DNA from: Streptomyces sp. NBC_01306
Lineage (GTDB): Bacteria; Actinomycetota; Actinomycetes; Streptomycetales; Streptomycetaceae
Reading direction: 5' to 3'
Assembly: GCF_026340465.1 (NCBI RefSeq)
Contig: NZ_JAPEPC010000001.1
Coordinates: 4,326,001-4,390,000 of the forward strand
Length of the DNA stretch: 64,000 nt
The notes below the pieces were generated by a model. It ran no database searches. It had not been told where the DNA came from and worked only from the letters and a program-made list of their open reading frames with translations. Below are positions 2,540 to 23,428 of this stretch, piece after piece (position 1 is the first letter of the stretch; every line of letters begins with the position of its first letter). The translations under genes and the position numbers were made by a program.

Positions 2540-4123
2540 TCAGCCGTCAGCGCCTTCGCGCCCCCGCACCTTCGCGTCGGCCGCGCCGCCCTGCGCCGGT
2601 ACGGCAGCGGCTGACGCCGTGTCCGGGCCGTCGCCGTCCATGTTGACCTTCGCGATGATCGCGTCGCGCTCCGGTGTGTCCTCCGGCTTGATGAAGCCGA
2701 TGAGGATGTAGAGCACCAGCGAGATCGCGAGGGGCAGCGAGACCTGCCACTCCAGGGCGACGTCCGTGTTGGTGGAGCCGTCCAGGTGGTAGTTGGTGAA
2801 GTAGAACGCGAGCAGCCCCGCGGCCCAGCTGACCAGCGCCGCCGTCGGCCCGGACTTCCGGAACGAGCGCAGCAGGCCGAGCATGAACGGGATCGCGATC
2901 GGGCCCATCAGACCGGCCACCCACTTGATGACGACCGAGATGATGTCCTTGAACGTGGGCGAGTTGATCTGGGTCGCCAGCGCCATCGACAGGGCGAGGA
3001 AGCCGAGCGTCGAGATCCGCGCGGCCAGCAGCCCGGTGCGGCTGCTCCACTCGCGGGCCGACTTGGACATGGCCGGGGCGATGTCCCGGGTGAAGACGGC
3101 GGAGATGGCGTTGGCGTCCGACGAGCACATGGCCATCGTGTGCGAGAAGAAGCCGACGACGACCAGGCCGAGCAGGCCGTGCGGCAGCAGCGACTCGGAC
3201 ATCAGCGCGTACGCGTCCGACGCGTCCGGCTTCTGCGCGTGCACCAGCAGCGGCGCGCACCACATGGGGAAGAAGAGGACGGCGGGCCAGACCAGCCAGA
3301 GGACGGCGGACAGCGTGGCCGAACGAGTCGCGGAGCGCGGGGAGTCGGTGGCCATGTAGCGCTGGGCCTGGTTCCACATGCCGCCGTTGTACTCGAAGGT
3401 CTTGATGAAGAGATACGCCAGCAGGAACGTCATCGTGTAGGGGCCGGCCGTCGGGTCGGTGTGGCCGCTGGGGAGCTTGTCCCAGACCGTCCACAGCGTG
3501 CTGAAGCCGTCGAGCTTGCCCATGGCGGCGACCAGCATCGCGACACCGGCGACCAGCTGGATGATGAACTGCCCCAGCTCGGTGAGCGCGTCGGCCCACA
3601 GACCGCCGACCGTGCAGTAAATGGCCGTGATCACACCGGTGATGAAGATGCCCTGGGTGATGGTGATGCCGGTGAAGACGGCGAGCAGGGTGGAGATGGC
3701 CGCCCACTTGGCACCGACGTCCACGATCTTCAGCAGCAGCCCGGACCAGGCCAGCGCCTGCTGGGTCTGGATGTTGTAGCGGTCCTTCAGGTATTCGAGC
3801 GGTGAGGCCACATGCAGCCGGGAGCGCAGCCGGTTCAGCCGGGGCGCGAAGAGCTTCGCGCCGATCCCGATGCCGATGGCGATCGGGAGCGACCAGGTGA
3901 CCATGGATGTGAGTCCGTACTGGTACGAGATTCCGGCGTACCCGGTGAACATCACCGCGCTGTAGCCGGACATGTGGTGGGAGATGCCCGACAGCCACCA
4001 CGGCATTCTGCCGCCGGCGGTGAAGAAGTCGCTCACGTTGTCCACACGCTTGTGGGACCAGAAGCCGATCGCGATCATCACGCCGAAGTAACCGATGAGC
4101 ACGGTCCAGTCGAGACTGTTCAT
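2540..4123 (-). CDS. Sodium:solute symporter (SSS family)
   Basis: Cation-coupled uptake permease of the cytoplasmic membrane. The N-terminus WTVLIGYFGVMIAIGFW is the first membrane helix, followed by the SSS hallmark FFTAGGRMPWWLSGISHHMSG and about 13 hydrophobic segments, ending in a charged Ala-rich cytoplasmic tail. Start chosen at 4123 (MNSLDW), because GGAGGGG lies 6-8 bases upstream; an in-frame codon at 4159 would add 12 residues without a ribosome site. Length of 527 aa is typical. The substrate is not readable; nearby acyl-CoA ligase and SDR genes suggest an organic acid, but that is inference. The short motif gtcagcc is repeated at the stop. Confidence 0.85.
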   Translation of the reverse strand: MNSLDWTVLIGYFGVMIAIGFWSHKRVDNVSDFFTAGGRMPWWLSGISHHMSGYSAVMFTGYAGISYQYGLTSMVTWSLPIAIGIGIGAKLFAPRLNRLRSRLHVASPLEYLKDRYNIQTQQALAWSGLLLKIVDVGAKWAAISTLLAVFTGITITQGIFITGVITAIYCTVGGLWADALTELGQFIIQLVAGVAMLVAAMGKLDGFSTLWTVWDKLPSGHTDPTAGPYTMTFLLAYLFIKTFEYNGGMWNQAQRYMATDSPRSATRSATLSAVLWLVWPAVLFFPMWCAPLLVHAQKPDASDAYALMSESLLPHGLLGLVVVGFFSHTMAMCSSDANAISAVFTRDIAPAMSKSAREWSSRTGLLAARISTLGFLALSMALATQINSPTFKDIISVVIKWVAGLMGPIAIPFMLGLLRSFRKSGPTAALVSWAAGLLAFYFTNYHLDGSTNTDVALEWQVSLPLAISLVLYILIGFIKPEDTPERDAIIAKVNMDGDGPDTASAAAVPAQGGAADAKVRGREGADG

Positions 4124-4490
4124 GTGCCCCCTCCAGGGGTCCGCCTGTACTGAGTTCATCTCGATGAACCGCGATGGAACCTCGATGAACGGGAAACGCT
4201 TCGCCAGTACGTCGATCGGGCGGCGCCCCCGTGCGGGACCGGGGGCTTCACGGATTGAACCCTCTGTGCCAAGGGCCGGTCAAGGGTTCAGCGATCACAA
4301 GTATGAACAGGGGTCAGTAAGTCGAACGATTTTGCGTCCTCTTGACTCACGGACCCGTTGCTCTCGGAGTGACGGGGGCCACACCATGAGCGGGCACTTC
4401 GCCAGCGGCAGCCATCCGGAGGCAGAACGGCAGGACCGCACGGGATGCGGGTCCCGTGCGGTCCGAGAAAAGGAGGTCCAACTGAGCTGT
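4124..4490. other. Intergenic region upstream of the symporter
   Basis: No gene is supported here. It holds the SDR terminator hairpin (4433-4464) and presumably the symporter promoter, which I could not pin to a consensus. A perfect AAGGAGGT (near 4471) on the plus strand has no start codon at a usable distance. Confidence 0.5.
4433..4464 (-). terminator. Hairpin terminator of the SDR gene
   Basis: Perfect 12-bp inverted repeat, GGACCGCACGGG and CCCGTGCGGTCC, with an 8-base loop. It lies 26 bases beyond the SDR stop codon on the reverse strand. There is no T-tract, as is usual for Streptomyces terminators. Confidence 0.7.
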
Positions 4491-5318
4491 TCAGCGCATC
4501 AGTTCACCGGCATTGACTAGCAGCGACTGCCCGGTGATGGCCCGCGCGCGGTCGGAGGCCAGGAAGATCGCGGCGTCCGCCACGTCACCGTCCGTCGCCA
4601 GCTCGGGCAGGGCCATCCGGCCGGTCAGCCGGCTGAGCACCTCCGCCTCGGGGACGCCCTCGGTGTGCGCGGTGAACTGGACGAACGCCTGCACCGGCGG
4701 CCCCCACATCCAGCCGGGCAGCACGGTGTTCACCCGGATCCGGTGCGGCCCCAGCTCGCGCGCCATGGAGTACATGGCCGAGGTGAGCGCGCCCTTCGAC
4801 GCCGCGTACGCGGCCTGGTGCACCTCTGACGGTGCGGCCACCGCCGACTGCGTCCCGACGATGACGACCGATCCGCCCCGCGCCTTGAGCCCGGGCAGGC
4901 AGGCCCGTGTCATCCGCAGCGTACCGAGCAGGTTGACGTCGATGACGCCCTGCCAGGTGGTGAAGTCGGCGTCCTCGATCCCGCCGAAGTAGCCGTCCCA
5001 GGCGGCGACATGGACCACCGCGTCGATCCCGCCGAACCGCTCGATCGCCAGCGCGGCGAGGGCGTCGCACTGTGACTCGTCGCCGATGTCCGTGGGCAGA
5101 TGGGCGGTCCGGGTGCCCGAGGGGTCGATCTCGGCGGCTGCCTTCACGAGGTTCGCCTCGGTGCGCGCGCCGAGTACGGCGTTGCCACCGTCCCGTACGA
5201 CCGCCGCGGCCACCTGGTGGCCGAGCCCGGCCCCGACGCCGGACACGACGACGGTCTTCCCCGCGAGCGCCGCGCCCTGCGATTCCGTGGGGCGGGATTC
5301 CGTGGCACGGCTTTCCAT
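4491..5318 (-). CDS. SDR-family NAD(P)-dependent oxidoreductase
   Basis: Classical short-chain dehydrogenase/reductase of 275 aa. The cofactor loop is SGVGAGLG (about residues 26-33); the acidic or basic residue after the second strand reads GARTEANL, compatible with NADP or NAD. The catalytic set is S (GTQSAVAAP), Y and K (YAASK), followed by the LPGWMWGP loop. The C-terminus FLASDRARAITGQSLLVNAG is the usual SDR ending. GGAGGG lies 6 bases before the ATG at 5318. A short AT-poor duplication (ESRATESRPTES) makes up the N-terminal tail. Substrate unknown. It is divergent from the next gene, with which it may share a promoter. Confidence 0.88.
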   Translation of the reverse strand: MESRATESRPTESQGAALAGKTVVVSGVGAGLGHQVAAAVVRDGGNAVLGARTEANLVKAAAEIDPSGTRTAHLPTDIGDESQCDALAALAIERFGGIDAVVHVAAWDGYFGGIEDADFTTWQGVIDVNLLGTLRMTRACLPGLKARGGSVVIVGTQSAVAAPSEVHQAAYAASKGALTSAMYSMARELGPHRIRVNTVLPGWMWGPPVQAFVQFTAHTEGVPEAEVLSRLTGRMALPELATDGDVADAAIFLASDRARAITGQSLLVNAGELMR

Positions 5319-8931: not shown

Positions 8932-11556
8932 GTGGCGGGCGAGTCCCCCGACAAGTCGGAGCAGCGGAAGTCGTCAGAGGGAACGGCTCCCGGTACGAGC
9001 GATCCGAGGCTTGCGGTCTTCCGCTCGGTGCCGGATCCGGAAGCGGGCGCGGTGTCCGGGTCGCAGTCGGGCGACGCACGGCTGCGTGAGGCGGTGGCCG
9101 CGTGGGTCGCGGCGGCGGACGAGCCGGCGGGTGACCCGTCGGGCGAGTCGGCGGACGGGCCGTCGGACGGTTCGTCGGACGGGAAGGATCCGTCGGGCGC
9201 GGACGGTGCGGACGGTGTGGCTGGTGCAGCCGATACGTCCGGTGCGGACGGTGCGGAAGGTGCGGAAGGTGCTGCGGAGGAGGCCTCGAAGACCCACGTG
9301 ATGGCCGGGCCCCCTGCCGACACGCCCGAAACGGCCGACGAAGACGAATCCGACTCGAACGCGGAGTCGACGGGTGAGGGCGCTCAGGGCGCTTCCGGGG
9401 CCGCAACCGCGTCCGAGGCGCCCCAGAGCGCCCCGGAGGGTGCGGGGGCGCGCACGGGCGCTTCAGGCGGCGCGGACGCCCCCGCCGAGGCGAACGGTGA
9501 CGCGGATTCCGACGATGCGCCGGAGAGCGCGGCGATCGGGACGGGCGGAACGGGTACCGGCGGCACCACGAGCGACACCGCAACGGGCACCACGGACGCG
9601 AAGGCATCCGAGGGTGCTGGGTCTGGGTCTGGGTCTGGCTCTGACGCGGACTCCGGCGCCGATGCGGATGTGGATGCGGCCGACGCCGACGCCGAAGCCG
9701 ACAAGCCGGCTGCGAAGCCTGCTGCCCGTGCGGACGCAGAGTCCGACGCCGACGGGAAGACGGACGCCGACGCCGAAGCGGATGCCGCGACCGCCGACAC
9801 CACCGCCGGGGACACGCCCGGCGCCACGTCGGACGCGAAGCCGGAAGCCGAGCCCGACGTCGCAAACGCAAAGTCCGCCCCGAAGGGCGATGCGAAGGAT
9901 GACGCGAAGGCCGAAGCGAAGGCCGATGCGAAGGCCGATGCGAAGGCCGAAGCGAAGGGCACCCCGAAGGCCGACAACGAGGCCGACGGCGAGGCCGTCG
10001 ATCAGCCCACCGGTATCTTCCGTGTCCCTTCCCGCCCCGTGATCGACCGGCCCACCACCACGCTGAAGCGCAGCACCTTCGTGCCGCTGCGCCCCGACGA
10101 CGTACCCGGTGAGCGGAAGAAGCAGCCCGCCCCGGTCCCGTCGCCCGCCAAGCCCCCGGCCGGGATCCCCGCCGCGAGCAGCACCACCAGCGCCACCGGT
10201 CCCACCGCCACCGCGGCCGGTGCCGGTGCCGCGCAGCCGGGCGTCGTCGAGCCGACCCGGCAGCTGGCGATGCCGCCCAAGCCGCCGCTCGACCTGCTCG
10301 CCGAGCTGACCAACAAACCGGCCCCGCCGGAAACCCCGGTGCGGACCGTCGTCCGCCGGTTCAAGATCTGGACACCGCTGGTGATCCTGCTGCTGATCAT
10401 CTTTGCAGTCGTACAGGCGGTCCGGCCGCTTCCTGATCCGAGCCTGTCCCTGACCGCCGCGCCGTCGTACTCGTTCGGCGGGTCCAAGGTCACCCTGCCC
10501 TGGCCGAGCGAGGGCCAGGGGAAGATCTCCGTGGCGGGGCTCGGCACCGTGGACGGTTTCGGGGACGAGAAGCCCGTGCCGATCGCGAGTATGGCCAAGT
10601 CGATGACGGCCTACCTGATCCTGCAGGACCACCCGATGAAGCCCGGTGCGAAGGGCGCGTCGATTCCGGTCGACGCCACGGCGGAGAAGGAAGGCCACTA
10701 CGACAAGACCGGTGGTGAGTCCACTCTCAACACCATCAAGAAGGGCGACGTCCTCTCCGAGAAGGACGCGCTCAGCGCGATCATGATCCCGTCGGCGAAC
10801 AACGTCGCGCGGCTGCTCGCCCGCTGGGACTCGGGCTCGGAAGCGGTGTTCGTGAAGAAGATGAACGACACCGCCAAGAAGCTCGGCATGACCAACACGA
10901 AGTACACCGACCCCTCGGGGCTGACCGCCTCCACGGTCAGCACGGCTGCCGACCAGGTGAAGCTGGGCCAGGAGCTCGTGAAGATCCCGGCGTTGATGGA
11001 CATCACGAAGCTCCCGAGCTGGACCGACCCGTCGGGCAAGACCTGGGGCAACTACAACCGGCTGGTCCCCTACAACGGTGCGATCGGCATGAAGACCGGC
11101 TCCACCACCAACGCCGGTGCCAGCCTGCTCTTCGCCGCGGAGCAGAAGGTCGGCGGCACGACGCAGTACATCGTCGGAGCGATCCTCTCGCAGCACAAGA
11201 CGCCGATCATCGACACGGTGAACGCGGTGAGCAAGACAGCGCTGCTGGCCACCGAGTCCGCGCTCACCTCGCGGAACGTGGTGAAGAAGGGCGAGGTCGT
11301 CGGGTACGTGGACGACGGGCTCGGCGGGCAGACCCCGGTCGTCGCCACCAGGGACTTCGAGGCGGCCGGCTGGGCCGGTCTGAAGGTCGACATCAAGATC
11401 GGCAACAGCAAGACGATTCCGCACTCGGCGAAGGCCGGGACGGTCGTCGGCCAGCTGACCGTCGGCTCCGGACCGGGCAAGGTCTCCGCCCCGGTCGCCC
11501 TCCAGAAGGATCTTCCGGAGCCCGGCTTCGGAGCGAAGCTGACCCGCGTCGGCTGA
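8932..11556 (+). CDS. D-alanyl-D-alanine carboxypeptidase (peptidase S11) with long low-complexity cytoplasmic N-terminus
   Basis: Membrane-anchored penicillin-binding protein that trims the terminal D-Ala from peptidoglycan stem peptides. Residues 1 to about 470 are disordered, rich in Ala, Asp, Glu, Gly and Lys, with reiterated DAKAEAK-type units near 9890-9960 and no signal peptide. A membrane helix (about 478-497, WTPLVILLLIIFAVVQAV) follows. The outside domain has the three active-site motifs: SMAK (SxxK, Ser near 553), SAN (SxN, about 620) and KTGST (about 720). A C-terminal beta domain follows. GTG at 8932 has AGGAGG 6 bases upstream. Family members are usually about 400 aa, so the head more than doubles the protein. 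Confidence 0.9.
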   Translation: MAGESPDKSEQRKSSEGTAPGTSDPRLAVFRSVPDPEAGAVSGSQSGDARLREAVAAWVAAADEPAGDPSGESADGPSDGSSDGKDPSGADGADGVAGAADTSGADGAEGAEGAAEEASKTHVMAGPPADTPETADEDESDSNAESTGEGAQGASGAATASEAPQSAPEGAGARTGASGGADAPAEANGDADSDDAPESAAIGTGGTGTGGTTSDTATGTTDAKASEGAGSGSGSGSDADSGADADVDAADADAEADKPAAKPAARADAESDADGKTDADAEADAATADTTAGDTPGATSDAKPEAEPDVANAKSAPKGDAKDDAKAEAKADAKADAKAEAKGTPKADNEADGEAVDQPTGIFRVPSRPVIDRPTTTLKRSTFVPLRPDDVPGERKKQPAPVPSPAKPPAGIPAASSTTSATGPTATAAGAGAAQPGVVEPTRQLAMPPKPPLDLLAELTNKPAPPETPVRTVVRRFKIWTPLVILLLIIFAVVQAVRPLPDPSLSLTAAPSYSFGGSKVTLPWPSEGQGKISVAGLGTVDGFGDEKPVPIASMAKSMTAYLILQDHPMKPGAKGASIPVDATAEKEGHYDKTGGESTLNTIKKGDVLSEKDALSAIMIPSANNVARLLARWDSGSEAVFVKKMNDTAKKLGMTNTKYTDPSGLTASTVSTAADQVKLGQELVKIPALMDITKLPSWTDPSGKTWGNYNRLVPYNGAIGMKTGSTTNAGASLLFAAEQKVGGTTQYIVGAILSQHKTPIIDTVNAVSKTALLATESALTSRNVVKKGEVVGYVDDGLGGQTPVVATRDFEAAGWAGLKVDIKIGNSKTIPHSAKAGTVVGQLTVGSGPGKVSAPVALQKDLPEPGFGAKLTRVG

Positions 11557-13681: not shown

Positions 13682-14770
13682 TCAGATCCGCTTCGCGCTG
13701 CGCAGTGTCGCCGCGTAGTAGCCGTTGCCGTCGAGGCGGGAGGTGCCGCCCTTGTCGCCGATGGTCGGGCCGTTCACCTCTTCGCGGCTGGAGACGAAGA
13801 TCAGGTGGCCGTCCGTGTCGTGGCCCATGTACATGCCGATGTGGTCGAGCCGCTGCCCGGTCCGCTGGTCGAGCTTGAAGAACACCAGGTCACCGGGTTG
13901 CAGGACATCGATCGAGGTCGGCCGGTCCGCAGGCGTGATGCCCTTGAGCGGGATGACATCGGCGCCCAGCTTGGAGCGGCCGATGCCGTTCGCGGTACGG
14001 GGCAGACCGTCACCCTGGCCGTCCAGCGGGGCGAGCGGGTAGCGCGCGCGGTAGCCGAAGATCGTCCGCATGAAGCCGGAGCAGTCGATCGCGCGGTACC
14101 GCGCCTTCGAGGGCTGCCGGGTGACACCGTTGCGGAAGGTGTACGGGATGCCGAGGTAGTCGAAGAAGTCCGACTGTTCGAGGCGCAGGTCGTTGCCCTC
14201 GCTGCCTTCCGGGTTGATCGGCCCGAAGTTCGCGTCGCCCGTGTACGGGACGCCCTCGTCGTCCTTCTTGACCGGCGCCCCTTCCACGTACTGGAAGGCG
14301 AACGCGAAGAGGTCGTCCTCCTCGCTGCCGTAGTACTTCTTGAACCAGTCCTGGAACCACTGCTGCTTCTCGGCGCCCTTCTTCCACTTCTCGGGCATCA
14401 GCCGCACCCAACTCTCCGTGACCACACGGGACTTGGTATTGGCCGGCTCCGCGAAGGTGCGGGACGGGCCGGTGAGCGTCGCCGTGCGGGCCGCGTCGGT
14501 GAAGGTGGCGAGCACCTTGCCGTCGGCGTCGCGCAGGACGGTACGGGCAGGCGAGTTGAGCCGTTCCCAGGTCTTCCCGGTCTTCAGCGAGTCGCCCGCG
14601 GTCCGCAGACCGGGCTTGTCGGTGACGGCCTGGACGGTGGGCGCCTTGGCCTGTTCGTCCTGGCGCAGCTCCACCGTGAAGTACGCGCTGCCCGCGAGCA
14701 GCGCGAGGACGGTGGTGGCGTGCAGGACCGTGCGGCTGCGCTTCGACTTCTTGGTACGCGGAGCGGTCAT
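13682..14770 (-). CDS. NlpC/P60-family cell-wall hydrolase
   Basis: 362 aa, exported through an N-terminal hydrophobic segment (VLHATTVLALLAGSAYF, about residues 15-31) that may stay as an anchor. The last 150 residues hold an NlpC/P60 papain-like fold: the cysteine is in RAIDCSGFMRTIFGY, the histidine in LDHIGMYMGHD. A preceding SH3-like region contains VTESWVRLMPEKW. Members cut gamma-D-Glu-to-diamino-acid bonds in peptidoglycan; gamma-glutamyl polymers are a chemically related target. It is the last gene of the pgs operon, 9 bases after pgsC, with a ribosome site overlapping that stop. Confidence 0.85.
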   Translation of the reverse strand: MTAPRTKKSKRSRTVLHATTVLALLAGSAYFTVELRQDEQAKAPTVQAVTDKPGLRTAGDSLKTGKTWERLNSPARTVLRDADGKVLATFTDAARTATLTGPSRTFAEPANTKSRVVTESWVRLMPEKWKKGAEKQQWFQDWFKKYYGSEEDDLFAFAFQYVEGAPVKKDDEGVPYTGDANFGPINPEGSEGNDLRLEQSDFFDYLGIPYTFRNGVTRQPSKARYRAIDCSGFMRTIFGYRARYPLAPLDGQGDGLPRTANGIGRSKLGADVIPLKGITPADRPTSIDVLQPGDLVFFKLDQRTGQRLDHIGMYMGHDTDGHLIFVSSREEVNGPTIGDKGGTSRLDGNGYYAATLRSAKRI

Positions 14771-14779
14771 GGGATCACC

Positions 14780-15262
14780 TCAGGCAGACGGGAGAGCGCC
14801 GAGCAGGATGCCGGCGGTCAGGACGACGTAGGCGAGGAGCGAGACCGAGCCGGTGGCCAGCAGCGTCGCCCCCTTGGGCTGGCGGACCAGCTGGTAGGCG
14901 ATGAGGCCGGGAACGATGAAGCCGAGCGTCTGGTTCGCGTACATCAGCGGGAACTCCACCTGGAGCACGATCATCACCGTCGCCTGGAGGATCACCCCGG
15001 TCAGCACCACGGCGGAGAAGAGCCGCTTGCCGTAGAGGATGACGACCTTCTGGAGCATCAGCACGGAGACGTACGTGAGGACGGTGACCCCGACGACCAT
15101 CGCCGCCCGCTGCAGATCCTCGACGAGCGTCAGCGCGAGCCAGCCGGGCGTGATCATGCCGCCGGGGGAGAGGTTGGTCGTCAGATAGCAGACCAGGGAG
15201 AACATCAGGCCGAGAGCGATACCGATGGCGGCGATCTCGGGCGTCAGGACGGTGGGGATCAA
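14780..15262 (-). CDS. pgsC: PgsC/CapC-like membrane subunit of poly-gamma-glutamate synthase
   Basis: 160 aa with about four or five membrane helices. It begins LIPTVLTPEIAAIGIALGL and contains LSPGGMITPGWLAL and NQTLGFIVPGLIAYQL, the conserved PgsC pattern; Bacillus PgsC is 149 aa. It partners PgsB in the membrane complex that polymerises and exports glutamate. I place the start at a TTG (15262) that overlaps the pgsB stop as TTGA, with AGGAG 8 bases upstream. A much longer reading frame runs on upstream but is a shadow of pgsB. Confidence 0.82.
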   Translation of the reverse strand: MIPTVLTPEIAAIGIALGLMFSLVCYLTTNLSPGGMITPGWLALTLVEDLQRAAMVVGVTVLTYVSVLMLQKVVILYGKRLFSAVVLTGVILQATVMIVLQVEFPLMYANQTLGFIVPGLIAYQLVRQPKGATLLATGSVSLLAYVVLTAGILLGALPSA

Positions 15263-16917
15263 CGGGGGTCTCCTGCGCTGTTCTGCCGGCTCTGCTGGTA
15301 CGGGTCGTGCGACGGATGCGGCTCGTGCGGCTCGTGCTGGTGCTGGGGCTGGTACAGGACGACCGGGTACTGCGGCTCCGTGTATGCCTGGTCGGGGTGC
15401 GCCTGGTCGGGGTACGGCGGCTCCCGGTACGCCTGCTCCGGGTGCGCCTGCTCCGGGTACACGGCCGGTTCGAACATGCCGCGGGGCTGCTGCCGCGATT
15501 GCTGCGATTGATGGGGCTGTTGAGGCTGTTGGGGCTGCTGTTCCTGCTGGTACGAGTACGGCTGGTGCTGCGGCTGGTAACGGGTCTCGTACGCCTCCGG
15601 GTAGGGCGCGTACGGGTCCAGATGCGGCCGGTACTGCTGCCCCAGCGTCTCGTCGTGCCGGGGGTGGTGCGGGTGCTGCGGACTGCGCTGTTCCGGTATG
15701 GCGGGCGCCTCGGCCGGGGGCGTCTCGTCCGGGGTCTCGTCGGGCGGGAGTTCGGCGAGGTGCTCCAGGAGCAGTTCGCCCTGGCCGTGGATGTTGCCGA
15801 TGGCGATGAGCGAGGAGTCGGGGCCGAGCTCCCCGAGCAGCGCTGCCATGAACTCGTCCGGGTCGCGCCGGTCGCCGCCGAGGTCGACCGCACGGTCTCG
15901 CCACTCGGCGGGTATCGCGTCGATGGCGCTCTTCGCGGGGTGGCCGATGACGAAGACCTTGTCGGGCCGGAGATCGGGGATGATCTCGCCCATCTGCCCG
16001 TTGCGCTCGACGCGGTCGGGACGGCAGTTGATGACGACGTGCAGCGGACGGTGCACGGCGCCCAGGTCGAGCAGCTGGTTGACGTTCATCAGCGTCGACT
16101 CGGGGTCGTTGGCCGCGAAGACATTGGCGAACCTGAGCTTCTTGCCGTCGGGCGTCAGATACCGCTCGACGGAGAGGACGCCCGGGTCCGGCGGGGCGTC
16201 GTACATCCCCTTGAGGGCCGTCTCCCGTTCCACGCCGAGGAGTTCGGCGACCTTCAGCGCGATGGCCACGTTCTCCTTGAACGTGAACCAGCTGAACCCG
16301 CGCAGCTCCTCGTCGCTGACCGTCTCCGGATCGGCGTAGACCAGCTCGCAGTCCCGTGCGTCGGCCTCCTCCTGGAGGATCGCGAACCGGTCGACCTCAG
16401 CGGTGACACAGATACCGCCCTCCGGCATGGAGCGGCAGAGCGAGCGCGCCACGTCGTCCAGGGTCGGGCCCATCTCGGCCAGATGGTCCTCGCGTACGTT
16501 GCAGAGCACGCCGATCGTGGAGCGGATCAGCTTGGACTGGTTGATCTCCTGGAGCGCCGGCATCACCGCCATGCACTCGATGACCAGTGCCTGCGGATCG
16601 TAGGACGCGGCCCGGCGCACGATGCCGATCTGCTCGACCACGTTGGCAAGGCCGAACTTCCGGTAGACCGGCTCCTCGGTGGCGTCGGGGTGGATGAACC
16701 GGGCAGCGGTGCCCGTGGTCTTGGCGACCGTCACCAGATCCCCGCCACGCAGTGCGCCCGCGCAGAGCCGGGTGATGGAGGACTTGCCGCGGATGCCGTT
16801 CACCAGGACCCGGGAGGGAATGCGCTCCAGGTTGATGAAGTGGCGGCGCTGCTCGACGATGCCCGCAACGAGCAGGATCGCGCAGCAGACCACCAGCACG
16901 GTGTAGAGGAACAGCAC
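15259..16917 (-). CDS. pgsB: PgsB/CapB-type poly-gamma-glutamate ligase with a long Gln/Pro/Tyr-rich tail
   Basis: ATP-dependent Mur-ligase-like amide ligase. A single N-terminal membrane helix (LFLYTVLVVCCAILLVAGIV) is followed by RIPSRVLVNGIRGKSSITRL with the P-loop G..GKS, then VIECMAV and the VREDH motif. These define the PgsB/CapB family, which joins glutamates through gamma-carboxylates. Bacillus PgsB is 393 aa; this protein is 552 aa. The extra C-terminal 145 residues are a low-complexity Q/P/H/Y-rich tail with repeated YPxQAHPxQAY-like units. GTG at 16917 is 6 bases after the upstream gene's stop, so the genes are co-transcribed. The polymer made here is inferred. Confidence 0.88.
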   Translation of the reverse strand: MLFLYTVLVVCCAILLVAGIVEQRRHFINLERIPSRVLVNGIRGKSSITRLCAGALRGGDLVTVAKTTGTAARFIHPDATEEPVYRKFGLANVVEQIGIVRRAASYDPQALVIECMAVMPALQEINQSKLIRSTIGVLCNVREDHLAEMGPTLDDVARSLCRSMPEGGICVTAEVDRFAILQEEADARDCELVYADPETVSDEELRGFSWFTFKENVAIALKVAELLGVERETALKGMYDAPPDPGVLSVERYLTPDGKKLRFANVFAANDPESTLMNVNQLLDLGAVHRPLHVVINCRPDRVERNGQMGEIIPDLRPDKVFVIGHPAKSAIDAIPAEWRDRAVDLGGDRRDPDEFMAALLGELGPDSSLIAIGNIHGQGELLLEHLAELPPDETPDETPPAEAPAIPEQRSPQHPHHPRHDETLGQQYRPHLDPYAPYPEAYETRYQPQHQPYSYQQEQQPQQPQQPHQSQQSRQQPRGMFEPAVYPEQAHPEQAYREPPYPDQAHPDQAYTEPQYPVVLYQPQHQHEPHEPHPSHDPYQQSRQNSAGDPR

Positions 16918-16923
16918 GTCCGG

Positions 16924-19257
16924 TCAGGTCCTTTCGGCGTGGGTCGCGGGCGCCGCGGGTGCGCTCGGCGCGGTGGGCGCGGTGGGCGCGGTGTCGCGCT
17001 TCGGCTGCGCCGGGAGCTGCTGGCGTACGAGCTCCAGAGAGCGGGTGACGGCGCCGACCTCGTCGTGGTGGCGCGGGTACAGGACGGTGCGGCGGTCTCC
17101 GCCGGCGAGGGCCTCGGCCTGGTCGGCGAGTGCCCGCAGCGGGCGTACGACGACGATGTGCAGCCAGCCGAGGCAGGCGGCGACAGCGGCCATCCCGAGC
17201 AGCCCGCCGAGCACGGTGAGGTTCTGTCTGCGGTATTCGGGGATGGCCAGAGAGCGTGCGGGCTGCTCGCTGACCACGGTCCAGCCGAGGGTCTTCGCCG
17301 CTCCTCCGCCGACGAAGGGCGCGGCTGCCGCGATCTGCACGGAGCCGCCGTCGCGGTAGAGGATGCCGCTGGGGTGCGGGCTGATGCCGGTCTGCTGGTT
17401 GGTCCCCGCGACGAGGGTCCTGAGGCGTTCGTTCGGGAGCCGGTGGAAGGCCCGGTAACCGGTGTTGCCGCCGATGACCCGCTGGTCGGCGTCCACGACC
17501 CGGACCTCGCCGAGCCCGGGCCGCTTGAGCAGCGCGTTCAGGAACTCGATCCGGAACTCCCCGATCACGGTGGAGCCGCTGCGGCTGGGGATCCCGGCAT
17601 ACCCGACGATGAGCGGCTTCTTGCCCGAGTGGTTGAGCACCCGGATCGAATGGCCGGCCTTGGCGCGGCTCACCGGCTGGTGGGGGGTGTCGCCCGCGTG
17701 GGCGACGACCTTCCCCGACGGGTCGACGACGTACAGCGACTGGTAGCGGTCGTGCTCCAGGCGGGTGCGCTCCAGGACGGTGTGCATATCGGCGGGCGAG
17801 GTGTCGCTGCCGATCAGTGTGGCCACCGAGAGAAGGTCGGCCTGGCCCTCGTTGAGGGCGCGGCGCACCCGGTCGGTGAGGGTGTCGGTGCGCTCGCGCT
17901 GGTCGTTGACGAGCTGCTGCGGTACGACGGCGGTGTCGTCGGCGCGGTTGAGGAGCAGCAGCATCGGCGCGCACCAGACGAGCAGCAGCGCGCCGCAGAC
18001 CAGGACGAGCCCGCGGCTGCCGAATTCGCCGGTGCGCGCGAACCTGCCGCGCCGCTGGGGAGCGGCCGCCCCCGCGGGTTCGCCGAGCAGTTGCCGGCGC
18101 AGCCGCTCAAGGGCGCGTCCGATCCTGGCGGCCTCCCCGTACGCGGGGGAGCTGACCGGGCGGGTCAGGTCGCCGCGGGTCAGCCTGCGGCTCTCCAGGA
18201 AGAGCCGGAGCAGCGGGCGTTGGACGGTGCCGAGCAGCAGCGCGACGGCGAGGGCCCCGATGACGACCAGCGCCCCGGCCGCGATCAGGCCGAAGAGCGG
18301 TCCGGCGACGGCGGTGGGGTTCTCCGAGACCGGGACCATGGCCACGACGCTGAGGCCGAGACCGGTGGCGATGGTCGGCTCACCGGGCTGCGGCCCGGCG
18401 AGCGAGGCGTATCCGGCGATGCTCCGGTCGCCCGTGTGGACGGCGCCCACCAGGCTCCCGCTGACACCGGGGAACCCGCCCGAGCCGGGCTCCCTGGCCG
18501 AGATGGGGTTCCGGCGCACCTTCACCGCGGCTGTCTTCGCGAAGCTCTTGAGCTGCCTTTCGGCCCGTTTGGCGTCGGCGCGCTGGGTGGCGGTGCGGAC
18601 CTGCTCGGGCTCGGGGATGCCGTCGCTGGAGAGGATCTCCGCTTCGTCGTCGATGACGGCGATGGAACGGAACTGGCCCAGGCTGATGCCGGGGAAGCGC
18701 AGATTGCTGGAGGCGACCAGGAGTTGCTGCGGGGTGCCGGGCCATGACAGCACGGCGAAGGAGAGCAGCCGGGTCTCGCCGTTGGCGAGCCGCACCATGC
18801 GCGGGCTGAGCCCGTCCTTGGCGCGGAGTTTGGTGGTGTCGACGGCGGTGAGGGGGACGTTCTCGCCGCGGGCCGCCAGCAGTTTTCCGGAGGAGATCTG
18901 GACGACGGCCGTGCCGGTCCACTTCTGGTAGACGCTGCTGACCTTGTCGAGCACGGCGTCGGGCGACGCGGGCGCTCCGGCGTTGAAGAGGTTCGCGGTC
19001 CGGCCCAGGTCGGTGAAGCTCTCGTCGATCGAGGCGCGCAGCGCGATGGCGCCGTCCTCGGCGAACTGCTGCTGCGAGGTCAGCACCGCCTTGGGGACGG
19101 GGTCCTGCACCGTACGCCCGAGGTTGAGTGCCGTGATCCCGGCCAGGGAGAGCAGCAGGACCGAGAGGACCGCGATGGGCGGTCGTATGCCACCCAGCAG
19201 CGACATGTCGGCCCGGCGGCGGACCTTGTGTCGCCGCTTCGCAGGCGTGGCGGCCAT
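16924..19257 (-). CDS. Tandem dCache-like/HAMP transmembrane sensor lacking an output domain
   Basis: 777 aa. Layout: membrane helix (about 20-42), an outside region of about 275 residues, helix (about 320-345), HAMP (LRLFLESRRLTRGDLTRPV), then a second copy of the same plan. That second copy has helix about 416-437, an outside dCache-like domain with SLYVVDPSGKVVAHAGD and VRVVDADQRVIGG, helix about 678-703, and a second HAMP (PLRALADQAEALAGGD). The protein stops soon after in an Ala/Pro-rich tail; no kinase, GGDEF or methyl-accepting domain is present. ATG at 19257 follows AAAGGGAA; a longer frame upstream lacks a ribosome site. First gene of the operon, 6 bases before pgsB, so it probably senses something for, or holds, the synthase. 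Confidence 0.8.
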   Translation of the reverse strand: MAATPAKRRHKVRRRADMSLLGGIRPPIAVLSVLLLSLAGITALNLGRTVQDPVPKAVLTSQQQFAEDGAIALRASIDESFTDLGRTANLFNAGAPASPDAVLDKVSSVYQKWTGTAVVQISSGKLLAARGENVPLTAVDTTKLRAKDGLSPRMVRLANGETRLLSFAVLSWPGTPQQLLVASSNLRFPGISLGQFRSIAVIDDEAEILSSDGIPEPEQVRTATQRADAKRAERQLKSFAKTAAVKVRRNPISAREPGSGGFPGVSGSLVGAVHTGDRSIAGYASLAGPQPGEPTIATGLGLSVVAMVPVSENPTAVAGPLFGLIAAGALVVIGALAVALLLGTVQRPLLRLFLESRRLTRGDLTRPVSSPAYGEAARIGRALERLRRQLLGEPAGAAAPQRRGRFARTGEFGSRGLVLVCGALLLVWCAPMLLLLNRADDTAVVPQQLVNDQRERTDTLTDRVRRALNEGQADLLSVATLIGSDTSPADMHTVLERTRLEHDRYQSLYVVDPSGKVVAHAGDTPHQPVSRAKAGHSIRVLNHSGKKPLIVGYAGIPSRSGSTVIGEFRIEFLNALLKRPGLGEVRVVDADQRVIGGNTGYRAFHRLPNERLRTLVAGTNQQTGISPHPSGILYRDGGSVQIAAAAPFVGGGAAKTLGWTVVSEQPARSLAIPEYRRQNLTVLGGLLGMAAVAACLGWLHIVVVRPLRALADQAEALAGGDRRTVLYPRHHDEVGAVTRSLELVRQQLPAQPKRDTAPTAPTAPSAPAAPATHAERT

Positions 19258-19622
19258 GAGCGTTCCCTTTCTGGGACTTCTTCCCGGGAGTTCTTCCGGG
19301 ACTTCTGGGTCGGGCAGGGCGGGGTGGGGCGGGGTGGACCGGATGGCGCGGGCCGTGCCGTCGGAACTGTCCGGGCCGGAACTGTGTGTGTCGGAACGGT
19401 GAGTGATCGGAACGCGGTCGCGAAAATGCATGACACGTTCGAATTGAGAACGGTTGTAAGGAAAGTGGCGGGTGTGACTCAGCGCACACAGCTGACTCAC
19501 AGCGTCCGCCGTGCCGGTCCACCCGGCAGACATCCGGGGGTGTCTCTCCGGTAACCGCGACGTCTCCCGGGCGCCCCCGCCCGTTCACCGGCCGGCCGCT
19601 GCCGCCCGGACCGCACCGCAGG
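19258..19622 (-). promoter_or_regulatory. Leader/promoter region of the pgs operon with an imperfect inverted repeat
   Basis: 365 bases with no gene. It is relatively A/T-rich around 19425-19470 and must carry the promoter of the reverse-strand sensor-pgsBC operon. At 19474-19500, GTGACTCAGC and GCTGACTCAC form a 9-of-10 inverted repeat with a 7-base loop, a candidate operator or RNA hairpin. No sigma consensus was identified. Confidence 0.45.
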
Positions 19623-20855
19623 TCAGCCGGGCAGACTCTCCAGCGGCTTCAGCCCGTCCTGCGCCGCCCCGCGGTTCAGCATCGTGCCCTCGGTGCGCTC
19701 GAACGCCAGCCGGTAGCGAGCCTTTTCCTCCGCGGTCAGCTTCCCGCTGTCACGCAGCGCCGCCGCCACATCGATGAGCCGGTGGTCCTGCACCGCGTCG
19801 GCGGCCGGCGGATTCGCCGCGTCGGACTCGGGCGGGATGGAGACGAGCGTCGGTACGTACCGTGCCCGGACCTCCCACTTGCCGCCCCGCTTCTGGAAGT
19901 CGAACCAGCCGATGACGCCCTCCTCGGTCAGCCCGGACGGCACCTCGTGCCGTGCGACCTGATTGCCGAGCCCGTACGCGATCCAGGTCCCGTCGACCTT
20001 CTCCATCGGCTGGACGACATGGGCGTGATGGCCGATGACCAGATCGATGCCGGTCTCACGGGCGATCCGGCGGGCCAGGCCGATCTGCCCCGAACTCGGC
20101 TCGGGGTGGTGTTCGCGGCCCCAGTGGATGCTGAGGATCACCACATCGGCGCCGGCTTCACGGGCGCGCAGCTCGGCCTTCCTGATCCGGTCGAAGGCCG
20201 TCAGGTTGGCGAGCCAGGGCTTGTCCGCCGGGACCTCGCGCCCGTTGAACCCGAAGGCGTACGAGATCTGTGCGACCTTGACGCCCTTCACGTCCATGAT
20301 CAGCGGCCGGTCGGCCTCCGCACTGCTGCGGGCCGAACCGGTGTGCTTGAGCCCGGCCTTGTCGAGTGCGTCGAGCGTGCGCTTCACGCCGGGCGCGCCG
20401 TGGTCGAGGGTGTGGTTCGACGCGGTGGAGCAGGTGTCGTAGCCGATCTGCTTGACCGCGGTGGTGATCTGCGGAGGCACCAGGAAGTCCGGGAAGCTGC
20501 GGAAGGGGCCGTTGGGCTCGCCCACCACCGGCTCGAAGTGGCAGATCGCCAGATCGGCCCGGGAGATGACGGGTTGCACCCCGGCCATCAGCCGGTAGAA
20601 GTCGAGCCCCTGCTTGCCTTCGGCCTTGGCATCCTTGCGGGCCTGCTCGATGAGCGGCGGATGGATGAGGATGTCACCCGCAGCGGCCACGGAGAACGAC
20701 TGCCCGCCGCCCTTGCCCGATGCGCCGTGGCCCGATGTTCCCGACGCGTCCGAACCGTCGCCGCCGTTCAGGAGCGAGCACCCCACCGCAGCCAGTGCGA
20801 GGAGAGCCGTCGCTGCGGCGCGGGTTGTGAAGGAGGCGTAAGGGTGTCGTGTCAC
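19623..20855 (-). CDS. capA: CapA/PgsA-family lipoprotein
   Basis: 410 aa. The N-terminus has Arg residues, a hydrophobic stretch and a lipobox-like LAAVGC, so it is probably lipidated and outside the membrane. The metallophosphatase-like CapA fold is marked by AAAGDILIHPPL, TASNHTLDHG, LSIHWGREHH and VIGHHAHVVQPME. In Bacillus, CapA/PgsA helps the PgsBC synthase export or release poly-gamma-glutamate. It lies 365 bases upstream of the sensor-pgsBC operon on the same strand but apparently has its own promoter. The start is GTG 20855, only 20 bases from the start of the divergent gene. Confidence 0.88.
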   Translation of the reverse strand: MTRHPYASFTTRAAATALLALAAVGCSLLNGGDGSDASGTSGHGASGKGGGQSFSVAAAGDILIHPPLIEQARKDAKAEGKQGLDFYRLMAGVQPVISRADLAICHFEPVVGEPNGPFRSFPDFLVPPQITTAVKQIGYDTCSTASNHTLDHGAPGVKRTLDALDKAGLKHTGSARSSAEADRPLIMDVKGVKVAQISYAFGFNGREVPADKPWLANLTAFDRIRKAELRAREAGADVVILSIHWGREHHPEPSSGQIGLARRIARETGIDLVIGHHAHVVQPMEKVDGTWIAYGLGNQVARHEVPSGLTEEGVIGWFDFQKRGGKWEVRARYVPTLVSIPPESDAANPPAADAVQDHRLIDVAAALRDSGKLTAEEKARYRLAFERTEGTMLNRGAAQDGLKPLESLPG

Positions 20856-20875
20856 CCGTGTATTTTTACTTCAAT

Positions 20876-21940
20876 ATGACGAGTCCTTGGGCCGGTAAAA
20901 AAGTGATCTTTGCAATATCGCTGGTCACAGCGTTGGTGGCGGTGGGTGTGGTGCTCGTCACGTCCAGCGGAGGAGGCGGTTCCGCCAAGGACCGGCCGCA
21001 ACGTGCCCGCCCGCGCGAGCAGGTCGACCTCGCCGCACGGATCGATGACTTCACCCGGCAGACGATCCGCCGCAGCGCCTTCCGCCCGCCCACCGCCCTG
21101 GAGCGCCGTGCGGTCGCCGACGGCGTCGGCCTGTATCTGGACGGACGCCGCGCGGAGGCCGGGAGGCGCCTGGCCGAGGTCGACTTCGGCGTCTCCGCTT
21201 TCACCGACACGGCCACCGGCCGCCCCTTCGCCGAATTCGCGGACCGGGCACGGGAGTCCACCCGGGGATGGGGCCGGGTGTACGTGGACCTGCCGCAGGC
21301 CGGGCGGCCCGCGGCGAAGTGGTCCGTGCAGGTTCCGCACCCGGTCGCCGATGCCGACAGCGAGAAACTGGGGGTGGGGGCGTGGCGCGCCACACCCGGT
21401 GGGGTGCTGGTGCTGGCGGGCGCCAACCGCAGGGCGGGCAAGGACGGCGCGGCGGATGTGGCCCACCGCCGGGACACGGTCTTCCACGCGGTCTGCGCCG
21501 AACTGATCGCCCGCCGGCTGCCGGGCATCCAGGTGCACGGCTTCGCCGACTCCACCGAGCCCGACTACGACGTGATCGTCTCCACCGGCCGGGGCGACCA
21601 CGGCCGCACCTGGGGCGAAGGCCTGGCGGCAGCGCTGTCCCGGCAGGGCTTCGACGTCTGCCGGGTCTGGGTGCGCCGCTGCTCACTCGAAGGCCGTACG
21701 AACGTCCAGGGGCGCGCCGCGGCCGACGCCGGACTCCCTTTCCTGCATGTGGAGTTCAGCCGCACGGTGCGGAAGTCCCCGGAGCGGATCACCCGCGCGG
21801 TGAAGGCGATCAGGGAGGCGGCGGGGCCGGCCGGCGGGGCTGCGCGGCCGGGGGCTGGCGCGCGTGCGGGGGCGGGTGCGCGGGCGGATGAGGGGACAGG
21901 TATGAGTGCGGATGCGAACGAGGGCGCAGTTGTGGGGTGA
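20876..21940 (+). CDS. Membrane-anchored or secreted protein, putative metallohydrolase-like
   Basis: About 354 aa with one N-terminal hydrophobic segment (VIFAISLVTALVAVGVVLV) and the rest outside the cell. Conserved-looking blocks are VPHPVADADSE, LVLAGANRRA, ADVAHRRDTVFHAVCAEL, QVHGF and FLHVEFSR. Several of these place His, Asp or Glu as in zinc amidases, or as in poly-gamma-glutamate hydrolases. I cannot confirm the family. A low-complexity Gly/Ala tail ends it. ATG 20876 has no ribosome site and may be leaderless; GTG 20849 has AGGAGG 12 bases upstream but would overlap capA. Divergent from capA, so a role in trimming the same polymer is plausible. Confidence 0.6.
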   Translation: MTSPWAGKKVIFAISLVTALVAVGVVLVTSSGGGGSAKDRPQRARPREQVDLAARIDDFTRQTIRRSAFRPPTALERRAVADGVGLYLDGRRAEAGRRLAEVDFGVSAFTDTATGRPFAEFADRARESTRGWGRVYVDLPQAGRPAAKWSVQVPHPVADADSEKLGVGAWRATPGGVLVLAGANRRAGKDGAADVAHRRDTVFHAVCAELIARRLPGIQVHGFADSTEPDYDVIVSTGRGDHGRTWGEGLAAALSRQGFDVCRVWVRRCSLEGRTNVQGRAAADAGLPFLHVEFSRTVRKSPERITRAVKAIREAAGPAGGAARPGAGARAGAGARADEGTGMSADANEGAVVG

Positions 21941-22042
21941 GCGCGCAGTGGTGGTGTGCGGGCGCTGTCGACCGGTGCGGTGGGCCGGCCGGGGGCGAAG
22001 TTCCGCCACCCGGTGCCGTGTTGAGTGGCAGGATCCCCGTAT

Positions 22043-23428
22043 GTGAGCCACGACCGCAGCGCGTTCATGACCATCGCGAGGACCGCAGCCCCGCTCTACG
22101 TCACCACCCTGGCCGCGTCGGCGGGTTCGCTCGTCGACACGGTGCTGCTGGGCCGGCACGCGACCGCCTCACTGGCCGCCTTCGCGGTGGCGGTGGCGGT
22201 TTTCGGGCCGGCCACCGCCACCGTGGCCGGCGCGCTGCGCGGGGTGATGCCGTTCATCACGCCCCACCGTGAGAATCCGGACGAACTGCTGCCGCTCGTA
22301 CGGAGCGGGATGTGGCTGGCGTTCGCGGTGGGCGGGGTGTGCGCGGCCGTGGTCGCCGCGGTCCCGCTCATCGGCGGACTCTGGGGCGTACAGCCTGCCG
22401 TACTCCACCAACTGGGGCTGCTGCCCTGGCTGCTGGCGGGCAGTGTGCTGCTGATTGCCGTCGGCGGATCGGCGACATCGGTCCTGGTCGCGCTGGGCCG
22501 CTCCGCGCAGGTGATGCGTTCCGGTCTGGTGGGCACCGCCGTATCCGTCACGCTGTCGATCCTGCTGGTCGGCGGCCCGGGGCCGCTCCCGAGCCATGGA
22601 CTGACCGGCGCGGGCGTGGCCATGCTCGCCTCCAGTCTGATCAGCACCGTCCTCAACCAACTGGCCCTGCGGCGGCGGACGGTACTGGCGGGACGGCCGC
22701 TGCGCCCCGGCCGGCCCGACCCGCGGCGCGTGCTGCGGCTGGCCGCGGTGGGCATCCCGCTCGGCGGCACGGTCCTGGTGAAGTTCTCGGTGCTGGGCAT
22801 GCTGACGTTCGCGGCGGCCCGGATCAGTACGGACGCGGCAGCCGTGCACGGCGTCTCGGAGTCGCTGGTGAACGTCATCTTCACCGCGGCGGTCGCGGTC
22901 GGCCAGTCCACGGTCCCGCTGATCGCCGACTACGCGTCCAAGCGTGACCTCAGGAGGATCCGCCGCAGTGTGGGGGCGGGGGTCAGGGTGGCCCTGAGTG
23001 CGGTCACCGTGCTGGGGGCGGTGCTGCTGGCGCTGCGCGGCCCAGTGGTGGGCCTGTTCACGACGGACGACTCGCTCAGCCACCAGGTGATGAGACTGCT
23101 GCCTCTGGTCCTCGCGGTGGTGGTCGCGGACGCACTGCAGGCGGTGGCGGGCTTCGCCCTGGTCGGACTCAGACGAACGGGCCCGAGTCTCGTGTCAACG
23201 GTGGTGTGGTTCGGGGTACTTGCCGCTCTGGCGGTCCCGGTGGCCGATACGTACGGTCTGACGGGCCTCTGGGCAGCGCTTGCGGGTGCGAACCTCCTGC
23301 AGGCCGGAACCAAGTCGCACTCATTCCTGCGGCACAGCTCCCGCCTGCGGACGCAAGGGGTCGCCGTAGCCCGTACGGGTGGCACCAGTGAGTCCGCAGG
23401 ACGCACCACGCCCGGGGTACAAGGCTGA
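22043..23428 (+). CDS. MATE-family multidrug/metabolite exporter
   Basis: About 461 aa with twelve hydrophobic segments in two halves. The N-terminal half has ARTAAPLYVTTLAASAGSLVDTVLLGRH, matching the MATE opening (P...........VDT..+G), and the second half has IPLGGTVLVKFSVLGMLTF. It should export cationic or neutral small molecules using a proton or sodium gradient. GTG 22043 follows AGGA; an in-frame GTG at 22025 adds six residues. It is not obviously co-transcribed with the gene upstream, which ends 102 bases earlier. Confidence 0.85.
   Translation: MSHDRSAFMTIARTAAPLYVTTLAASAGSLVDTVLLGRHATASLAAFAVAVAVFGPATATVAGALRGVMPFITPHRENPDELLPLVRSGMWLAFAVGGVCAAVVAAVPLIGGLWGVQPAVLHQLGLLPWLLAGSVLLIAVGGSATSVLVALGRSAQVMRSGLVGTAVSVTLSILLVGGPGPLPSHGLTGAGVAMLASSLISTVLNQLALRRRTVLAGRPLRPGRPDPRRVLRLAAVGIPLGGTVLVKFSVLGMLTFAAARISTDAAAVHGVSESLVNVIFTAAVAVGQSTVPLIADYASKRDLRRIRRSVGAGVRVALSAVTVLGAVLLALRGPVVGLFTTDDSLSHQVMRLLPLVLAVVVADALQAVAGFALVGLRRTGPSLVSTVVWFGVLAALAVPVADTYGLTGLWAALAGANLLQAGTKSHSFLRHSSRLRTQGVAVARTGGTSESAGRTTPGVQG

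Follow-up and report, generated by a model that had tools for sequence, protein, structure and literature searches.

Synthesis of poly-γ-glutamate (γ-PGA) is known mostly from Bacillus, where its control has been described at the level of transcription. In the Bacillus pgsBCA and capBCA sets the genes stand in the order B-C-A. In B. subtilis, pgdS is placed downstream of pgsBCA (PMC10897055) and its product is described as an NlpC/P60 enzyme with three tandem modules (PMC5880399). PgsA is stated, with reference to other work, to epimerize L-Glu to D-Glu while the chain is being extended (PMC7168211), and B. subtilis PgsBC without PgsA is reported to make an L-rich γ-PGA (D/L 5/95, as against 75/25 with PgsA) in a paper which also recalls older work where PgsA appeared to be essential (PMC6029982). 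Here, we describe a related set of genes in a 64,000-nucleotide stretch of Streptomyces sp. NBC_01306 (contig NZ_JAPEPC010000001.1, positions 4,326,001 to 4,390,000), referred to below as the window: four minus-strand genes encoding a tandem dCache/HAMP protein (hereafter the Cache protein), PgsB, PgsC, and an NlpC/P60 protein, preceded by a CapA/PgsA homologue and a divergent gene, X. An initial annotation of this DNA held that polyglutamate is little described in Streptomyces; this stands insofar as the open-licence literature yielded no experimental work on any Streptomyces PgsB, but the presence of γ-PGA genes in the genus is already in print, in one sentence of PMC6506827. No paper joining Cache and PgsB was found in the same literature.

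The window shares with Bacillus pgsBCA/capBCA a PgsB above the equivalog cut-off (NCBIfam TIGR04012, 373.6 bits against 222.7, E 9e-112), a PgsC-family protein directly after it (Pfam Caps_synth_CapC, E 5e-34, above cut-off), and CapA/PgsA and NlpC/P60 proteins nearby. It differs in order (X, divergent, and then CapA, Cache, PgsB, PgsC, and NlpC) and in having an added dCache/HAMP protein, an optional CapA, and a long, variable PgsB tail. By gene content the system groups with the γ-PGA synthases and is predicted to work like one, and the proposed receptor subunit, the gene order, and X are what is new relative to the known synthases. The tight four-gene block of the initial annotation was borne out in coordinates and identities by sequence, profiles, and Foldseek, as were its gaps of 6 bases (Cache to pgsB) and 9 bases (pgsC to NlpC); its TTGA overlap measures 4 bases rather than 3. 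Two neighbors had been overlooked, X and the same-strand CapA/PgsA homologue; the latter sits 365 bases upstream, so that the synthase is not a three-part one lacking PgsA.

The Cache protein and PgsB occur together. Across 197 evenly sampled Streptomycetales genomes, where the Cache search scored up to five first-look candidates per genome, PgsB was above cut-off in 46 (a weak 47th match was in G021), and the Cache protein was present in the same 46. As about a quarter of the sampled genomes carry the block, a common, unstudied surface polymer may have been overlooked. The initial annotation had proposed surveying genomes for the same gene order, and in 47 further loci of those genomes the Cache, PgsB, PgsC, and NlpC homologues lie on one strand in all 47, with a Cache–PgsB gap of 1 to 19 bases, one broken locus excepted; CapA adjoins 27 of these loci and X adjoins 34. 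Three loci are imperfect: the Cache gene is in pieces in L039 and split over two frames in L069, and PgsC is split in L049. Among the best 80 of 587 named loci, ranked by similarity to one PgsB and therefore biased toward the Cache-linked branch (they overlap partly with the other loci surveyed), the Cache gene is directly upstream of PgsB in 80, with PgsC in 80, NlpC in 70, and CapA in 45. Among the carriers are S. noursei (L150) and S. globisporus (L184), as well as Kibdelosporangium, Lentzea, Kutzneria, Amycolatopsis, Streptacidiphilus, and one Jiangellales metagenome-assembled genome (MAG). A sensor in such a block had been called unusual, but in this lineage it is a fixed partner. The pooled set comprises 130 Cache-linked loci, or 120 once identical PgsBs are removed. 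Two genomes carry two pgs blocks each: G012 and G079, the latter with blocks ∼48 kb apart (L039 and L057), one of which has the broken Cache gene.

Outside this lineage, the pairing is not general. In a phylum-wide sample of 396 genomes, PgsB was above cut-off in 21; 17 of these are outside the window's genus, two with the Cache protein and 15 without. At those 15 loci (L108-L115 and L117-L123), where some flanks are limited by contig ends, no Cache homologue was found at E<=1e-2. They resemble the window in a PgsB above cut-off and a PgsC, with CapA after PgsC in 14 of 15, and differ in that their PgsBs fall in other clades. An NlpC homologue lies divergently beside pgsB in three of them and an X homologue follows in one, which would support a link of both families to the pathway. 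All 31 Cache-linked rows of the PgsB tree fall in one clade (support 96/95), although the program warns of long branches between groups. PgsB and Cache divergence correlate across 112 loci (Spearman 0.87; L039, L049, L069, L070, L139, and L159 were left out beforehand), which says only that they share descent.

The Cache protein has the fold of a receptor. Pfam recognizes two HAMP stretches (E 2.5e-10, above cut-off) and a dCache_1 match below cut-off (E 6.4e-5), and Foldseek of the predicted model (mean predicted local distance difference test score 80) returned dCache receptor domains, with E down to 5e-8 for receptor models and 5e-7 for a solved amino-acid receptor domain; chemoreceptor dCache domains of the Protein Data Bank were also matched. 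The N- and C-terminal halves are homologous (hhalign 97.8%, E 7e-13). Among 38 PgsB-linked Cache proteins, HAMP was present in all 38 and an output domain (kinase, cyclase, or methyl-accepting) in none, HAMP and dCache_1 being the only matches at E<=0.01. The protein thus has the fold and the HAMP parts of a dCache/HAMP signaling receptor and lacks a recognized output domain of its own. A search of 374 genomes of the class, with a single-module Cache protein as query, matched 28: 10 from the same genus as the window, each of them on the PgsB-positive list, two further genomes with an adjacent PgsB, and 16 weak matches without strong similarity. The four of these 16 that were examined (L233-L236) have detectable similarity to the Cache protein, HAMP in all four, and dCache_1 in two, and all end in a class III cyclase domain, whereas the PgsB-linked proteins have no recognized output domain; the nearest outside relatives seen are therefore receptors with an output enzyme.

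Other arrangements of the Cache modules also adjoin pgsB. In Pseudonocardiaceae, two separate single-module genes precede pgsB in six of seven loci, and in Kutzneria both are in one open frame. A single-module form is found in the Jiangellales MAG and in family f20 (outside the window's class) and scores best against the C-terminal half of the Streptomyces protein (217 versus 102 bits for the f20 protein); in family G782 the fused form is accompanied by PgsB, PgsC, NlpC, and X. Because single-module, two-gene, and fused forms all adjoin pgsB, the modules have been fused or doubled and yet stayed beside it. A response-regulator-like frame was seen by motif scan upstream of X in six of the seven Pseudonocardiaceae loci (L124, L125, L126, L128, L133, and L137, about 3000-4930).

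Taken together, we consider it an even call that the block encodes a γ-PGA-type synthase from an actinobacterial branch in which PgsBC is gated by a receptor subunit of its own. PgsB, as an ATP-dependent amide ligase, and PgsC, as its membrane partner, would make and export a glutamate polymer, and the Cache protein beside them would relay an extracellular signal through its HAMP parts, with the synthase itself as the output. Where present, CapA would turn part of the chain into D-glutamate; NlpC/P60 would release or shorten the polymer; and X, anchored at the outer face too, would join the same process by an undescribed reaction. HAMP columns are better conserved than extracellular Cache columns (0.72 versus 0.44, p 4e-16), as would be expected of a fixed inner partner and a varying outer side, with the general conservation of HAMP expected to explain part of the difference. 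The same data bear on the possibility that the Cache protein is a structural subunit, with large extracellular domains that steer the newly made polymer or hold CapA, NlpC, and X together where it exits, and with no ligand sensing. Its obligate pairing with PgsB, its lack of an output domain, and the bulk and variability of its extracellular domains would fit such a role, but a pure scaffold would have no need of two well-conserved HAMP parts and the fold is that of a receptor, and we regard a structural subunit as unlikely.

PgsB itself carries a P-loop of which N40, G41, R43, G44, K45, and S46 are invariant in 14 of 14 PgsBs; in Pfam it matches Mur_ligase_M alone, just under cut-off (23.1 of 24 bits), and comparison by sequence with solved structures gave nothing convincing. 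In 48 Streptomyces PgsBs, the tail that follows the GNIHGQGE motif is between 17 and 302 residues long. The PgsBs of the Cache-linked branch are 33 to 40% identical to other actinobacterial PgsBs, a distance which could indicate that the product is another amide polymer, or a γ-glutamyl wall modification made by the same type of enzyme, rather than γ-PGA. That PgsC falls under its NCBIfam cut-off and that no report of a Streptomyces polymer was found would be in keeping with a different product. Against this, PgsB exceeds the PgsB equivalog cut-off by 150 bits, and CapA and NlpC are partner types of γ-PGA loci as these have been described; we find a different product rather improbable.

A number of points weigh against the gated γ-PGA synthase. 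Support for the polymer, complex, and ligand roles comes from sequence, models, and gene context, and co-occurrence and adjacency do not demonstrate contact. The HAMP parts of receptors are well conserved in general, so their conservation here does not single out a contact with PgsB. PgsC scores 73.2 bits, under the NCBIfam PgsC equivalog cut-off of 96.45. CapA adjoins the block in 73 of 130 Cache-linked loci, so the Cache protein need not replace it. Nor is CapA peculiar to the pgs system, since 18 of 20 PgsB-negative genomes also encode CapA-family proteins. Finally, the aligned third catalytic position of the NlpC protein is Ser in 35 of 38 members, instead of His, Asn, or Gln, and one member has no catalytic Cys.

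CapA is the sole PF09587 protein of the window's genome and resembles the NCBIfam MslH epimerase weakly (43.5 bits against a cut-off of 700); its role, where it is present, is probably chain epimerization. We considered the Cache protein as an outright substitute for CapA, which in its simple form is unsupported given how often CapA stands next to the block. Nineteen genomes have a block without CapA; 18 of them encode a CapA-family protein elsewhere (G012 at its second block), and G113 is the only one with none. Synthesis without CapA has a precedent in the L-rich PGA reported for B. subtilis PgsBC when PgsA is missing (PMC6029982). From that report, the stated epimerase activity of PgsA, and the weak MslH match, we predict that loci with CapA make a D/L-mixed polymer and that CapA-less loci make an L-rich one, so that related loci with and without CapA would constitute a natural experiment.

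The NlpC/P60 protein has one module (PF00877, E 2.6e-7, above cut-off) and a model which resembles the DL-endopeptidase CwlO (Z 13.8), and its role is probably chain trimming. The catalytic Cys is kept in 37 of 38 members and the His in all 38; by sequence alignment, the third position is His in only three members, which come from B-C-A-type loci. In one homologue (L074:7280-8389) the catalytic Cys is replaced by Ser, and this protein may therefore be inactive. The initial annotation had taken a hydrolase beside the synthase genes to be unusual, but PgdS of B. subtilis is likewise an NlpC/P60 protein beside such genes (PMC10897055, PMC5880399). It differs from the window's single-module protein, with its Ser, in its three modules and in a third residue described as Gln.

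Gene X belongs to an undescribed family. The window's copy gave no Pfam match at E<=1 and no NCBIfam match, and its best match among solved structures (E 0.2) is at chance level. X homologues occur in 103 of the 130 Cache-linked loci and in 35 of the 46 PgsB-positive genomes, compared with a weak fragment in one of 151 other Streptomycetales genomes (up to ten first-look candidates were scored per genome). No match to PF05908 (Gamma_PGA_hydro, PghP-like) was found by hmmscan. An hhalign comparison with PF05908-type hydrolases gave a probability of 3.4% and a score of 26.6, with a maximum of 17.7 in 60 column shuffles and 26.8 for an unrelated Cache alignment; the aligned motifs are partly collinear (HGF ... 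N ... E ... R), but the score is no higher than that of the Cache control, which this faint likeness therefore does not pass. None of the 120 nonredundant loci lacks both X and NlpC, but chance alone would leave about two such cases and the loci share ancestry, and we make no claim that one or the other is always present. As annotated, CapA (minus) and X (plus) share a few bases at their starts, in an AT-rich stretch (window 20849-20876), or lie ∼20 bases apart if X begins at ATG 20876; at such spacing the promoters of both must overlap coding sequence.

A fuller proposal can be made for the whole branch: a Cache/HAMP receptor that has lost its enzymatic output employs PgsBC in that place and switches polymer export directly and post-translationally, in response to a cue from outside the cell which might be the polymer itself or pieces of it; the presence of CapA decides between a D/L-mixed product and one that is almost entirely L; and X is a second, undescribed polymer-processing enzyme. 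We offer it tentatively, as more apt to fail in some part than to hold throughout. If true, a receptor subunit fixed in a synthase would offer a simple example, open to testing, of polymer synthesis driven by a receptor without second messengers. The set also brings out X as an undescribed protein family linked to the pathway. That the Cache protein is instead an ordinary receptor, acting through a separate kinase or cyclase encoded elsewhere to alter transcription of the block, would suit its fold, its HAMP parts, and the response-regulator-like frame of the Pseudonocardiaceae, but is distinctly improbable given that all 38 proteins lack an output domain, that no conserved partner turned up beside the Streptomyces loci (no search was aimed at one), and that the Pseudonocardiaceae regulator would be a second one.

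Table 1. Features of the locus, in window coordinates (aa, amino acids; TM, transmembrane segment).
Feature	Position	Strand	Basis or remark
Gene X, divergent from CapA; single membrane anchor at the N terminus; family undescribed; ATG 20876 is the likelier start	20849..21940	+	
CapA/PgsA homologue, probable chain epimerase	19623..20855	-	PF09587 E 1e-66
CapA-to-Cache gap, 365 bases; possible promoter site for the four-gene block	19258..19622	-	sequence
Cache gene, tandem TM-dCache-TM-HAMP protein, 777 aa, no recognized output domain	16924..19257	-	Pfam, predicted model, Foldseek, hhalign
dCache domain 1, extracellular, aa 48-320	18298..19116	-	model and hydropathy; boundaries approximate
HAMP1, aa 345-392	18082..18225	-	first of two Pfam HAMP stretches; conservation 0.70
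dCache domain 2, extracellular, aa 437-673	17239..17949	-	Pfam, model, Foldseek
HAMP2, aa 703-748	17014..17151	-	Pfam HAMP 702-748; conservation 0.74
pgsB, membrane-anchored Mur-ligase-type amide ligase	15259..16917	-	TIGR04012 E 9e-112, above cut-off
PgsB P-loop NGIRGKSS, aa 40-47	16777..16800	-	invariant residues given in text
PgsB C-terminal tail, Pro/Ala/Gln-rich, aa 390 to end	15262..15750	-	length variable
pgsC, integral membrane protein; TTG start overlaps pgsB stop by 4 bases	14780..15262	-	Caps_synth_CapC E 5e-34
NlpC/P60 protein, single membrane anchor at the N terminus; catalytic pair Cys230/His310	13682..14770	-	PF00877

No sigma-70-like promoter site was found in the CapA–Cache gap, which is poorly conserved across the five loci compared, with no shared motif seen, and terminators were no more numerous than in shuffled sequence. 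An anti-phage role was dropped, as PADLOC gave no matches for five proteins. Further out, a D-Ala-D-Ala carboxypeptidase lies downstream of the block (window 8932-11556) and a MATE-type transporter lies beyond X (22025-23428).

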